From assembly GCF_003581425.1 (NCBI RefSeq), contig NZ_QXTG01000001.1, positions 1,364,001-1,428,000 on the forward strand: DNA of 64,000 nucleotides, read 5' to 3'. Within the stretch, counting starts at the first letter, position 1; each line of letters starts with the position of its first letter. The position numbers and the translations under genes are program-made. Shown here one piece after another: positions 4,048 to 63,804 of this stretch. The notes under the pieces are model-generated. The model did no database searches and was not told the origin of the DNA. It saw only the letters and a program-made list of their open reading frames with translations. This DNA is from Amnibacterium setariae (lineage in GTDB: Bacteria > Actinomycetota > Actinomycetes > Actinomycetales > Microbacteriaceae).

Positions 4048-4057
4048 ATTCGGGGCG

Positions 4058-4129
4058 CGCCCCTACCAAGATTCGAACTTGGGCCTCTGCCTCCGGAGGG
4101 CAGCGCTCTATCCCCTGAGCTATAGGGGC
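4058..4129 (-). tRNA. tRNA-Arg (anticodon CCG)
   Basis: The 72-nt cloverleaf is complete. Acceptor GCCCCTA pairs with TAGGGGC, the D-arm is GCTC/GAGC, the anticodon stem is CTGCC/GGCAG with loop CTCCGGA (anticodon CCG, reading CGG), the variable loop is AGGC, and the T-arm is CCAAG-TTCGAAT-CTTGG. The discriminator base is G. CCA is not encoded, as in many actinobacterial tRNAs. CGG is a common arginine codon in a genome of this composition. tRNA 3' ends are frequent integration sites, and the accessory-looking genes lie on the 3' side of this one. Confidence 0.95.
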
Positions 4130-4246
4130 CGACGGGACGCCCAAGGTTATCAGCCCGAGCGTTCCCCGATCTCCACCACGCGGTGGCCGGACCCTCGCGC
4201 GGGAGGTGGACCTGCCGCGCGAGGGTCCGGGTACCGCGTCAGGCGG

Positions 4247-50829: not shown

Positions 50830-51984
50830 GTGCCCGCACTGAACATCGGCATGCCGAAACCCCAGCCCGTGACGCTCGCGCCCCGGCGCAAGTCGCGCCA
50901 GATCCGGGTCGGGAAGGTGCTCGTCGGCGGCGACGCGCCCGTCAGCGTGCAGTCCATGACGACCACGCCGACGCCGAACATCAACGCGACGCTGCAGCAG
51001 ATCGCGGAGCTGACCGCGTCCGGCTGCGACATCGTCCGCGTCGCCGTCCCCTCGCGGGACGACGCGGAGGCGCTGCCGATCATCGCCAAGAAGAGCCAGA
51101 TCCCCGTCATCGCGGACATCCACTTCCAGCCGAACTACGTCTACGCCGCGATCGACGCCGGCTGCGCCGCGGTCCGCGTGAACCCGGGCAACATCCGCAA
51201 GTTCGACGACCAGGTGAAGCAGATCGCCGAGCGCGCGAAGGCCGCCGGGGTCTCGATCCGCATCGGCGTGAACGCCGGCTCGCTCGACCCGCGACTGCTC
51301 GAGAAGTACGGGAAGGCCACGCCGGAGGCGCTCGTCGAGAGCGCCGTGTGGGAGGCGAGCTTGTTCGAGGAGCACGACTTCCACGACTTCAAGATCTCGG
51401 TCAAGCACAACGACCCGGTCGTGATGGTGCAGGCCTACCGGCTGCTCGCCGAGCGCGGCGACTGGCCGCTGCACCTCGGCGTCACCGAGGCGGGCCCGGC
51501 GTTCCAGGGCACGATCAAGAGCGCGACCGCGTTCGGCATCCTCCTCGGCGAGGGCATCGGCGACACCATCCGCGTCTCCCTCTCCGCCCCGCCCGTCGAG
51601 GAGGTCAAGGTCGGCCTGCAGATCCTGCAGTCGCTGAACCTCCGCGAGCGGAAGCTCGAGATCGTGTCGTGCCCGTCGTGCGGTCGCGCGCAGGTCGACG
51701 TCTACTCGCTCGCCGAGAACGTGACCGAGGGCCTGCAGGGGATGAGCGTCCCGCTGCGTGTCGCCGTCATGGGCTGCGTCGTGAACGGCCCGGGCGAGGC
51801 GCGCGAGGCGGACCTCGGCGTCGCGTCCGGCAACGGCAAGGGCCAGATCTTCGTCAAGGGCCAGGTCATCAAGACCGTGCCCGAGTCGGAGATCGTCGCC
51901 ACCCTGATCGAGGAGGCGAACCGCATCGCCGACGAGATGGGCCCCGGCGCCCCGACGGGCACCCCGGAGATCGTCACCGTCTGA
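50830..51984 (+). CDS. ispG: 4-hydroxy-3-methylbut-2-enyl diphosphate synthase (IspG/GcpE)
   Basis: 384 residues; converts methylerythritol cyclodiphosphate to HMBPP in the MEP pathway. The three [4Fe-4S] cysteines are C281 and C284 (SCPSCGR) and C316 ([10 protein letters not shown]). A TIM-barrel N-terminal part begins with [13 protein letters not shown] at 50830 is chosen for the AAGGAGGT four bases upstream; GTG 50815 is the alternative if the mRNA is leaderless. Confidence 0.96.
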
Positions 51985-51991
51985 TCCGTTC

Positions 51992-52030
51992 TGAAGGAGT
52001 TCTCGGGCGTCCCGCGCGAGAACTCCTTCA
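51992..52030. terminator. bidirectional terminator between ispG and the cupin gene
   Basis: Perfect 14-bp stem TGAAGGAGTTCTCG (51992-52005) and CGAGAACTCCTTCA (52017-52030) with an 11-nt loop. AAAA follows the right arm on the plus strand. It sits between convergent genes and is by far the strongest dyad there. Confidence 0.85.
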
Positions 52031-52038
52031 AAAGGGAT

Positions 52039-60388: not shown

Positions 60389-63247
60389 GTGGCGAAACCA
60401 CGCGTCCACGAGATCGCGACCGACCTCGGGATCGACACGAAGCTGGCGCTCGCGAAGCTCAAGGAGATGGGCGAGTTCGTCAAGGGCCCGTCGTCGAGCG
60501 TCGAGCCCCCCGTCGTGCGCAAGCTGAAGGCGAAGCTCGCGGCCGACGGCATCACGACGGCCGGCGCCGCCGGCGGACCGCGCCCCGGCGCGCCCGTCGC
60601 GGGTCGACCCGGCCCCGTCGCGCGGCCCGGCACCCCCGGCCCGCGGCCGAGCGCGGCCCCCGCGCCGCGGCAGGCCCCGGAGACGGCGGCCCCCGCCGCC
60701 GCCCAGCAGCCGGCGGCGCCGCAGAGCGCGCCCGCGCCGCAGCAGCCCCAGCAGCCGGCGGCGCAGCCGCAGGCCGAGCGCCCCGCGGCGCAGCAGGCCG
60801 CGCCGCAGCGTCCCGCTGCGACCGACGACACCGCGCGGCCGGTCGAGGAGCGCCCCGGCGCCCCGCGTCCGGGCGGCGCAGCGACCCCCGGCGCGATCCC
60901 GCGTCCGGGCGGCGCCCCGCGTCCCGGCGCTCCGCGTCCGGGCAACAACCCGTTCGCCTCCAGCCAGGGCATGGGCCGTCCCGGCACGCCCCGTCCGGGC
61001 AACAACCCGTTCGCCTCGAACCAGGGCATGGGTCGTCCCGGCGCGGGCGGCGGCGCCAACGGCGCGATCCCGCGTCCGGGCGCTCCGCGTCCGGGCGCTC
61101 CGCGTCCCGGCGCGCCCCGTCCGGGCGCCCCGCGTCCCGGCGGGCCCGGCATGGGCCAGCGGCCGCAGGGCTTCGGCCAGCGTCCGAACTTCCAGCGCCC
61201 CGGCGGCGCGGGCGGCGGCGCGGCTCGACCCGGCGGCGCCGGTGGCGGCTTCCAGCGCCCGGCGGGCGGCTTCAGCGGTCCCCGTCCCGGTGGCGGCGGT
61301 CGCGGTCGCGGCCCCGGCGGCGGCACGGCGGGCGCGTTCGGCAAGGGCGGCGGCAAGAGCCGTCAGCGCAAGTCGAAGCGGACGAAGCGCGCCGAGTTCG
61401 AGATGCGGTCGGCCCCGACCCTGGGCGGCGTCAGCGTCCCCCGCGGCGACGGCTCGACCACGATCCGCCTCCGTCGAGGCGCCTCCATCACGGACTTCGC
61501 GGACAAGATCGACGCGAGCCCCGGCAACCTCGTCACGGTGCTGTTCCACCTCGGTGAGATGGCGACCGCGACGGAGTCGCTCGACGAGGCCACGTTCCAG
61601 GTGCTGGGCGAGGAGCTCGGCTACCGGATCGAGATGGTCTCGCCCGAGGACGAGGACCGCGAGCTGCTCGAGGGCTTCGACATCGAGTTCGAGTACGACG
61701 AGGACGACGAGGACCTGGAGATCCGGCCCCCGGTCGTGACCGTCATGGGCCACGTCGACCACGGCAAGACGAAGCTGCTCGACTCCATCCGCCACTCCAA
61801 CGTGGTGGCGGGCGAGTCCGGTGGCATCACGCAGCACATCGGCGCCTACCAGGTGTGGAAGGAGCACGAGGGCAACGAGCGCGCGATCACCTTCATCGAC
61901 ACCCCGGGCCACGAGGCGTTCACCGCCATGCGTGCCCGCGGTGCCGAGGTGACCGACCTCGCGATCCTCGTGGTCGCCGCCGACGACGGCGTCATGCCGC
62001 AGACGGTGGAGGCGCTGAACCACGCCCAGGCGGCCGGCGTGCCGATCGTGGTCGCGGTGAACAAGGTCGACAAGGAGGGCGCGAATCCGGCGAAGGTCCG
62101 GCAGCAGCTCACCGAGTTCGGCCTGGTCGCGGAGGAGTACGGCGGCGACACGATGTTCGTCGACGTCTCGGCCCGCACCGGGCTCGGGATCGAGGACCTG
62201 ATGGACGCGGTCCTGCTGACCGCGGACGCCGGGCTCGACCTGCGCTCGAACCCGAACCGCGACGCGCGCGGCGTGGCCATCGAGGCGCGCCTCGACAAGG
62301 GCCGCGGCGCCGTCGCGACGGTGCTGATCCAGACGGGCACGCTCCGCGTTGGCGACTCGATCGTGGCGGGCACGGCCTACGGCCGCGTCCGTGCGATGAC
62401 CGACGAGAACGGCGTCGCGATCGTGGAGGCGTACCCGTCGCGGGCCGTCCAGGTCCAGGGCCTCTCCTCCGTCCCGCGGGCCGGCGACACCTTCCTCGTC
62501 ACCGAGGAGGACCGCACGGCTCGACAGGTCGCGGAGAAGCGCGAGGCCGCCGAGCGGAACGCGTCGCTGGCGAAGGCCCGCAAGCGCATCTCGCTCGAGG
62601 ACTTCATGGGTCAGATCGAGGCCGGCAAGGTCGACTCGCTGAACCTGATCATCAAGGGCGACGTGTCCGGTGCCGTCGAGGCGCTGGAGGAGTCGCTCCT
62701 GAAGATCGAGGTCGACGACAGCGTCCAGCTGCGGATCATCCACCGCGGCGTCGGCGCCGTCACCGAGTCGGACGTGAACCTGGCGACGGTCGACAACGCG
62801 ATCATCATCGGCTTCAACGTGCGCCCCGACCCGAAGGCCCGGGAGCGGGCCGCTCGCGAGGGCATCGACATCCGCTTCTACTCGGTGATCTACTCCGCGC
62901 TGGAGGACGTCGAGCAGTCGCTGAAGGGCATGCTCAAGCCGGAGTTCGAGGAGGTCCAGTCGGGCCTCGCCGAGATCCGCGAGGTCTTCCGCTCGTCGAA
63001 GTTCGGCAACATCGCGGGTGTCATCGTCCGCAGCGGCACGATCACCCGCAACGCGAAGGCGCGGGTCATCCGCAACGGCGTGGTCGTCGGGGACAACCTG
63101 GCGATCGAGTCGCTGCGCCGCTTCAAGGACGACGTCACCGAGGTCCGCACGGACTTCGAGGCCGGCATCGGCCTCGGTCGGTTCAACGACATCCAGGTCG
63201 GGGACGAGATCGAGACGACCGAGACCCGCGAGAAGGTCCGCGTCTAG
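60389..63247 (+). CDS. infB: translation initiation factor IF-2
   Basis: A 952-residue GTPase that brings initiator fMet-tRNA to the 30S subunit. Two IF2_N domains: the first at 1-50 ([20 protein letters not shown]), the second before the G domain. Between them is a long Pro/Gly/Arg/Gln-rich region with tandem repeats, usual for high-GC actinobacteria. The G domain has GHVDHGKT (454-461), DTPGH, and NKVDKEG; domains II, III and the C-terminal tRNA-binding domain follow ([18 protein letters not shown]). GTG start with AGGAG 4-5 bases upstream. Confidence 0.97.
60935..61042 (+). repeat. tandem 57-bp repeat inside infB
   Basis: Two adjacent near-identical units with a 57-bp period (starting 60935 and 60992) encode [17 protein letters not shown] and [17 protein letters not shown]. 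Shorter [11 protein letters not shown] repeats follow. In-frame, so the protein is not disrupted; copy number is likely variable between strains. Confidence 0.85.
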
Positions 63248-63250
63248 CGC

Positions 63251-63365
63251 GCGGATCCGCATTTCCTTCGCGGATCCGCAGTTCTGAGGCGACACGCCGT
63301 GTCCGGGGTTCCCGGACACAGCGTGTCGCGCAGGAACTGCGGATCCGCGTTCGTTCCGAAGGAGG
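63251..63365 (+). repeat. nested inverted repeat between infB and rbfA
   Basis: A 16-bp perfect stem (63269-63284 / 63334-63349, beginning CGCGGATCCGCAGTTC) encloses a 4x4 internal loop, a 9-bp stem GCGACACGC/GCGTGTCGC (63289-63297 / 63321-63329), one C-A mismatch and a 9-bp stem GTGTCCGGG/CCCGGACAC (63299-63307 / 63311-63319) closed by a 3-nt loop. The palindrome GCGGATCCGC occurs three times (63251, 63270, 63339). TTTCCTT (63262-63268) can also pair with the rbfA SD AAGGAGG (63359-63365). It fills nearly the whole gap between the two genes. Confidence 0.9.
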
Positions 63366-63369
63366 AGCC

Positions 63370-63804
63370 GTGGCCGACCACGGACGCGCCGCGAAGCTCG
63401 GCGACAGCATCAAGGAGATCATCGCGAAGCGCCTCGAGAAGGGGCTCCGCGACCCCCGGCTCGGGTTCGTGACGATCACGGACGTCCGCATGACGGGCGA
63501 CCTGCAGCACGCGAGCATCTTCTACACCGTGTACGGCACGGAGCAGGAGCGCGAGGACTCCGCGGCGGCGCTCAAGGCCGCCACCGGCCTGCTGCGCACC
63601 GAGGTGGGCCGGAACATCCGCGCCCGGCTCACGCCGTCGCTCGAGTTCATCCCCGACGCGGTGCCGGAGAACGCGGCCCACGTCGCGGACCTGCTCGCGC
63701 AGGCCCGCGAGCGGGACAGCGCGGCCCGGGCGCTCGCCGAGGGCGCCCAGTACGCCGGCGACGCCGACCCGTACGTGAAGCCGCGCGAGGCCGACGCGGA
63801 GTGA
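63370..63804 (+). CDS. rbfA: 30S ribosome-binding factor A
   Basis: A 144-residue KH-like factor for 16S rRNA maturation and 30S assembly, also important in the cold. IIAKRLEKGLRDPRLGFVTITDVRMTGDLQHA is the conserved block, in two parts, and TPSLEFIPDA lies in the last strand. The acidic C-terminal extension after about residue 115 is common in actinobacteria. GTG is preceded by AAGGAGG, which the intergenic hairpin could mask. Confidence 0.95.
   Translation: MADHGRAAKLGDSIKEIIAKRLEKGLRDPRLGFVTITDVRMTGDLQHASIFYTVYGTEQEREDSAAALKAATGLLRTEVGRNIRARLTPSLEFIPDAVPENAAHVADLLAQARERDSAARALAEGAQYAGDADPYVKPREADAE

Follow-up and report, generated by a model that had tools for sequence, protein, structure and literature searches.

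The closest described counterpart of the element analysed here is the REP/RAYT system, in which RAYTs have been proposed to spread REPs. In passages of two papers on this system, REPs are extragenic palindromes dispersed 3' of genes, and the helper gene is framed by two inverted copies (Nunvar 2010, PMC2817692; Di Nocera 2013, PMC3733652). The same passages describe helpers that are repeat-specific and co-evolve with their repeats, with several families per genome (PMC2817692; PMC3733652), and the former also ties repeat abundance to the presence of the helper (PMC2817692). A second point of comparison is the EDxHD family of enzymes, for which a review reports long DNA targets (PMC3943268). 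The palindrome considered below lies between infB and rbfA of Amnibacterium setariae, in a 64,000-nucleotide stretch (the window; contig NZ_QXTG01000001.1, positions 1,364,001 to 1,428,000). We think it likely that this palindrome is a non-autonomous member, of the type F1, of a repeat family belonging to a small DUF559-type nuclease that is EDxHD/Vsr-like.

The two genes are separated by 122 nt, infB ending with TAG at 63245-63247 and rbfA starting with GTG at 63370, and the gap is laid out as follows.

63245 to 63247, plus strand: infB stop codon (sequence); the F1 element starts 2 nt downstream.
63250 to 63349, plus strand: F1 repeat element, complete copy (own-genome BLAST; 40-copy alignment; covariance model, 108.7 bits, this copy itself being among the 40 used to build the model).
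63250 to 63261, plus strand: motif A, CGCGGATCCGCA, a direct copy of B (40-copy alignment).
63262 to 63268, plus strand: A-B linker TTTCCTT (consensus nTTCCTC), the segment that the sequence-only reading had paired with the rbfA Shine-Dalgarno sequence, or SD (alignment, fold).
63269 to 63280, plus strand: motif B, left arm of the outer helix (at variable position 11, B equals C in 104 of 104 copies).
63290 to 63299, plus strand: S1, CGACACGCCG, left arm of the inner helix (alignment, covariation analysis).
63300 to 63318, plus strand: variable loop, here partly in an extra 9-bp helix (fold, copy comparison).
63319 to 63328, plus strand: S2, right arm of the inner helix, with one mismatch to the consensus (alignment, covariation analysis).
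63338 to 63349, plus strand: motif C, right arm of the outer helix (alignment, covariation analysis).
63360 to 63365, plus strand: rbfA SD, AGGAGG (sequence).
63370 to 63804, plus strand: rbfA, GTG start and TGA stop (sequence; a search of 36 genomes, own included, found the protein in all 36).

The gap folds into stacked helices of 16, 9 and 9 bp (MFE -96.7 kcal/mol, z = -8.3), and none of 200 shuffles folded equally well. The structure is far beyond chance. The sequence-only reading was right about the three helices, as it was about the three copies of GCGGATCCGC, which lie at 63251, 63270 and 63339. A fully paired inner loop is unusual within F1, being seen in 5 of 104 copies including this one. 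At the gathering threshold, Rfam has no family at the element, and a tRNA is its only match in the window. A phage origin of the element was rejected, as it has no match among 50,697 phage records at E 1e-3.

Within its own genome (G000), the gap gave at least 78 BLAST matches on at least 40 distinct sites (the best 40 of 131 candidates being scored); nearly all matches beyond one per site are the same palindrome on the opposite strand. Counted without duplication, the genome stretches examined contain 50 F1 elements with at most nine motif mismatches, 47 of them with at most three. GCGGATCCGC occurs 180 times in the genome, where base composition would give an estimated 19 or so. The gap element was matched in nine of the 60 genomes searched, own included: A. 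setariae, all six Amnibacterium congeners (G001-G006), and G012 and G050, the last two being the only ones among 53 genomes beyond the genus and having one weak hit each (E 1e-3 and 7e-4, respectively). The suggestion of a REP- or MITE-like mobile element with symmetrical ends therefore proved right in kind: there are many copies at home and in the six congeners, although movement itself was not seen.

F1 is about 100 bp long, with the layout A(12)-7-B(12)-9-S1(10)-18/19-S2(10)-9-C(12). The motif sequences in 40 copies are CGCGGATCCGCA for A and B, CGACACGCCG for S1, CGGCGTGTCG for S2 and TGCGGATCCGCG for C, and by inspection the consensus foot is nCCTT-CGCGGATCC. Spacing in these copies is nearly invariant: A-B is 19 in 39 of 40, and B-S1 is 21 and S2-C 10 in all 40. 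Copies in the home genome are 95-98% identical in the motifs and 35% in the loop. In a set of 104 drawn from five genomes, 63 copies have a loop of 19 nt, 40 one of 18 nt and a single copy one of 17 nt. The linker between A and B has the core TTCC or TTCT in 54 of the 104. Downstream of C the 40-copy alignment has the consensus AAnnn, and hence no U-tract. Motif position 11 is C or G; there B matches C in 104 of 104 copies, while A departs from both in six. Compensating changes thus maintain the outer helix, and A is a less constrained additional copy of B. In the S arms, the paired change CGACACCCCG/CGGGGTGTCG is found in four copies, with one-sided variants at the same pair in three and three. 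Over the whole 38-pair stem of 40 copies, pairing is 79.9% versus 78.7% after shuffling, with the covariation score reached by 5 of 500 shuffles; because this is little above the shuffles, and pairing in the linkers is not clear, we do not claim the linkers as helices. Pairing in the inner loop is modestly above shuffled sequence (0.495 versus 0.415, 0 of 500). A:C pairing is kept nearly as well as B:C (97.9% versus 99.0% of cells), and A may be an alternative pairing partner of C. In 10 of 104 elements (eight of them in G006), an extra motif with at most two mismatches follows C near the 19-bp register, and in 1 of 104 such a motif precedes A; the elements concerned are L044:2460, L081, L083-L087, L091 and L097 (G006), L048 (G000) and L107 (G002).

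Most F1 copies lie at the 3' end of a gene, with an orientation preference that follows the upstream gene. Of 110 copies, 84 have the end of a coding frame at their A side, compared with 90 of 2000 random points of the same loci, and the median distance from gene end to element on this side is 4-14 nt, depending on the genome. At the C side a gene ends in 46 of 110; 47 copies have a gene end at the A side only, nine at the C side only and 17 at neither. Many sites are common to several species, with both flanks matching, and loop identity is 45% in 17 orthologous pairs versus 34% in 3775 non-orthologous pairs. Shared sites, together with spacers that are more alike in orthologous pairs, indicate that many copies are inherited and constrained mainly at the motifs. 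Among the loci compared, no target-site duplication or clean filled-empty pair was established.

At unrelated sites in three genomes, a gene of about 1 kb lies between two inverted F1 copies. Its product of about 300 aa matches DUF559 at 21.5 bits (cut-off 20.6) and REase_MTES_1575 below the cut-off; the A. kyonggiense homolog scores 15.1 bits for DUF559, below the 20.6 cut-off, and Pfam support for a DUF559 assignment of the F1 nuclease is weak. Across homologs, E207, D234 and D260 are conserved in 59 of 59, and E244, D246 and H251 in 57 of 59, a residue pattern that is that of EDxHD/Vsr-like nucleases. A profile of 26 members gave four hits at E of 1 or less, of which 3hrl (an endonuclease-like protein, E 1e-8) and 3r3p (a mobile intron protein, E 9e-5) stand out, the other two not being significant. 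We take 3r3p to be I-Bth0305I. The N-terminus of some members is weakly AbiEi-like. AbiEi models match some nuclease members weakly, and an AbiEi-type name is attached to the nuclease homolog in two of four plasmid records. Where such nucleases carry an annotation, it is at best that of a DUF559 or an AbiEi-family antitoxin domain protein. A defence system was considered and rejected: PADLOC returned only weak AbiEi hits (best E 2e-4) and NCBIfam nothing above the cut-off. A RAYT helper was likewise rejected, since Y1_Tnp (PF01797) has no match in the A. setariae genome, while 5 of 14 control genomes are positive, and the helpers match DUF559/MTES_1575 instead.

The nuclease has four matches in the home genome and 32 in the six congeners, two of the latter being left out of the flank comparison for want of a locus. 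In all nine close homologs (E of 1e-71 or better; seven genomes searched), both the F1 model and direct comparison place elements on both sides of the gene, in each case F1 or a sister type in inverted orientation:

L151, L155, L156 (with one in-frame TAG), L157, L158 and L161: flanks with the CGGATCCG motif.
L159: flanks with a variant of the CGGATCCG motif.
L162 and L163: sister-type flanks (CACGGATCAGG or CACCGATCAGG) that keep S arms of the CGACACGCCG type.

A broken, more distant nuclease (L168/L184) has weak element matches on both sides (28-32 bits) and the nuclease fragment L174 adjoins an element; among the remaining homologs run through the F1 model, the only element is near L170, 1.1 kb away. 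The nuclease unit follows the same gene in G000 and G002, occupies another site common to G001, G002 and G004, and a third in G003 and G006. At the site of G001, G002 and G004, A. setariae has a single element, with flanks that match between L029 and L080 (left 86%, right 92%); loss of the unit could equally account for this arrangement. The F1 model, run on both strands with the best 150 candidates scored per genome, gave 108, 128, 80, 58 and 105 matches in G000 to G004, each of which has an open close nuclease homolog, 46 in G006, where the homolog has an in-frame TAG, and 20 in G005, where no close homolog was found in an assembly that is 84% complete.

All seven Amnibacterium genomes have DUF559/Vsr-like nucleases, as do 15 of 23 from other genera of the Microbacteriaceae. 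We compared 350-bp flanks in inverted orientation for 59 nuclease genes (30 from Amnibacterium and 29 from other Microbacteriaceae, five fragments of 64 loci having been dropped), taking a score of 20 or more as high. Such scores were reached by 20 of the 30 Amnibacterium and 11 of the 29 other genes, 31 of 59 in total, leaving 28 without inverted flanks at this threshold. Control genes reached it in 5 of 228 cases, one being the G001 nuclease itself; these controls are all from Amnibacterium sequence, and the genes of other genera have no genus-matched control. Randomly paired flanks have a 95th percentile of 15.5 and a highest score of up to 58.5, probably because flanks of the same family were paired together. 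Non-nuclease genes also have elements nearby on both sides, namely an aminoglycoside-nucleotidyltransferase-like gene (L051) and enolase (L032), so that a pair of nearby copies is no proof by itself.

Repeat families differ between nucleases, and the two co-diversify. Over 31 loci, repeat and nuclease divergence are correlated (Mantel r 0.66, 0 of 2000 permutations), a value that still includes shared descent. Moreover, none of the 335 pairs with less than 35% protein identity has a repeat similarity of 20 or more, against 1 of 80 pairs with 35-45% identity, 10 of 42 with 45-60% and 6 of 8 with more. The repeat beside a second A. setariae nuclease, L152 (G000:C1:1541642-1542493, outside the window), which we call F2, has at least 80 matches on at least 40 sites in the same genome (the best 40 of 93 scored); F2 copies have a variable loop and often follow a stop codon, as does one in the window:

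51984 to 52038, no strand assigned: F2 copy, TTTTGAAGGAGTTCTCG.., immediately following a stop codon, with a convergent reading frame beyond.

In a survey of further families, the L164 repeat has five sites in 118 kb of G006 and the L153 repeat four in 328 kb of G000, both gene flanks included in each case; the L152 repeat has six, and the F1 sister type of L163 five in G001. All families besides these and F1 have 0-3 sites in the examined stretches of their own genome. The repeat flanking L205 is not dispersed in G012, where two of its three matches are the flanks. On a Tsukamurella plasmid (NZ_LR134466.1), a tblastn match to the nuclease (L234) has inverted flanks with a score of 24.5, one of three plasmid homologs to reach 20 (L232 and L233 do not), hinting that the association reaches Mycobacteriales.

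These features resemble REP/RAYT in several respects: F1 is dispersed and mostly downstream of genes, the nuclease is flanked by inverted repeats in nine of nine close homologs, nuclease and repeat co-diversify (Mantel r 0.66), repeat families are specific to their nucleases, and several families (F1, F2) share one genome. In contrast to RAYTs, the helper here is a DUF559/Vsr-like EDxHD nuclease and not a Y1/HUH tyrosine transposase; F1, at about 100 bp, combines direct with inverted motifs, and by inspection its foot has neither a GTAG nor a CGTC tag. With inverted flanks and co-diversification present and the enzyme family different, the system appears to work like REP/RAYT without being a member of it. 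By sequence profile, the F1 nuclease shares family and active-site residues with the EDxHD homing endonuclease I-Bth0305I and Vsr, but its gene is free-standing between two hairpins, with no intron or intein seen. As in MITEs and TIRtrons, short non-autonomous copies match the ends of a gene-bearing unit; the differences are that the sole gene of the unit is a DUF559-type nuclease rather than a DDE or Y1 transposase, that F1 is near-palindromic over most of its length and that many copies are vertically inherited.

F1 is dispersed, with conserved motifs and spacing and drifting spacers, and the close nuclease homologs are framed by two inverted copies. We suggest that the nuclease would recognise its own repeat, through the motif together with a hairpin or cruciform, and nick or cut it. 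Host replication or repair might then place further copies elsewhere, either of the repeat or of the nuclease gene plus two repeats, as proposed for RAYTs and REPs, after which many copies would be inherited vertically and either tolerated or used as transcript 3'-end hairpins. On the pattern of association, the nuclease probably spreads or maintains the repeats; alternatively, the two might go together because the repeats serve a host regulator as operators or targets. The wider proposal, to which we would give about an even chance, is that of a second, independently evolved REP-like class in Actinomycetota, in which each free-standing Vsr-like (DUF559/EDxHD) nuclease owns dispersed palindromes, cuts them as hairpins and spreads them by a homing- or transposition-like route without a known transposase. 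Among the matches listed in the open-licence literature (subscription papers being outside the scope), nothing links DUF559 or MTES_1575 to dispersed repeats. DUF559/Vsr-like nucleases, mostly without a known role, would gain a function if each keeps its own palindrome family. If the proposal is true, the origin of actinobacterial intergenic hairpins is explained, and the RAYT/REP pattern, in which a nuclease and a population of short repeats persist together, arose also with an unrelated enzyme, so that how and why repeat populations persist becomes testable by comparison. For biochemistry, it supplies a candidate hairpin-specific nuclease.

At infB-rbfA itself, F1-type elements are found in G000, G005 and G006. 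G004 has a sister type with TTTCACGGATCAGG ends, the type of nucleases L162 and L163; G001 has a simple hairpin of at least 23 bp with a weak F1-model match (31 bits), and G002 and G003 have other hairpins. Gaps without F1 thus hold other hairpins, and no clean empty junction was established among them. Among 23 loci of other genera, a helix of at least 12 bp was read from the folds in 13, and none in G014 and G016, the rest not being parsed reliably because infB stops had been placed mechanically. In G000, G004, G005 and G006 the element between infB and rbfA has a paired inner loop, unlike most F1 copies. We read infB-rbfA as a site where some strong hairpin is wanted and where the repeat was taken into service: the copy there would occupy the lineage's strong-hairpin site, as an attenuator or an RNA-stabilising or insulating element, its loop having become fully paired. 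The sequence-only reading had envisaged instead a temperature- or ribosome-sensitive switch in which the F1 copy masks the rbfA SD. RbfA is a cold-shock ribosome factor, which speaks for this idea, and the helix between UUUCCUU and the SD can form in A. setariae, with best partner probabilities of 0.39-0.50 and a mean paired probability of the SD of 0.76. However, that mean is 0.11-0.68 in the other six Amnibacterium gaps, where the SD is free or pairs in part with other local bases and not with the A-B linker; pairing of linker and SD is predicted in one of seven gaps, in this species only. Moreover, linkers of this type are typical of the family, including copies that have nothing to do with rbfA, and the main helices are very stable, which makes melting at growth temperature unlikely. 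An RNA switch is therefore very improbable here.

There are two other rival explanations. F1 might mainly be a terminator or mRNA 3'-end stabiliser multiplied by the genus, with the nuclease association secondary. The gene ends a median of 4-14 nt before the A side, the orientation following the upstream gene, the maintained base pairing, the site-by-site vertical conservation and the strong unrelated hairpins at infB-rbfA in many relatives would all fit such a host element. Nevertheless we regard it as unlikely, because the sequence is conserved besides the pairing (95-98% in the motifs), which a terminator does not need, the hairpin lacks the U-tract of an intrinsic terminator (AAnnn after C), and both the inverted flanks of nine of nine close nuclease homologs and the nuclease-specific families are left unexplained. 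Fixed spacing with drifting spacers, and the extra motif near the 19-bp register (10 of 104 right of C, 1 of 104 left of A), would suit an array in which A, B, C and S1/S2 are operators of a double-strand DNA-binding protein (nucleoid, segregation or regulator), the nuclease being merely autoregulated via two copies. The identity of B and C in 104 of 104 copies, even in the six in which A differs, points to pairing instead, and oriented placement at gene ends is unusual for operators, so that we hold such an array to be quite unlikely. A dispersed repeat belonging to the nuclease remains our preferred reading.

Three further observations concern individual loci. A 25-bp near-perfect hairpin lies in the window at 4178-4239, about 50 nt from the tRNA-Arg gene at 4057-4129, and has no second copy in the own-genome stretches examined. 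At L051:2500-3766, two F1 elements enclose a gene that resembles aminoglycoside-2''-adenylyltransferase fused to a 2'-5' RNA ligase-like domain. A gene for a phage-integrase-family recombinase (L055:2567-3511) starts beside an F1 element, at a site common to two species.
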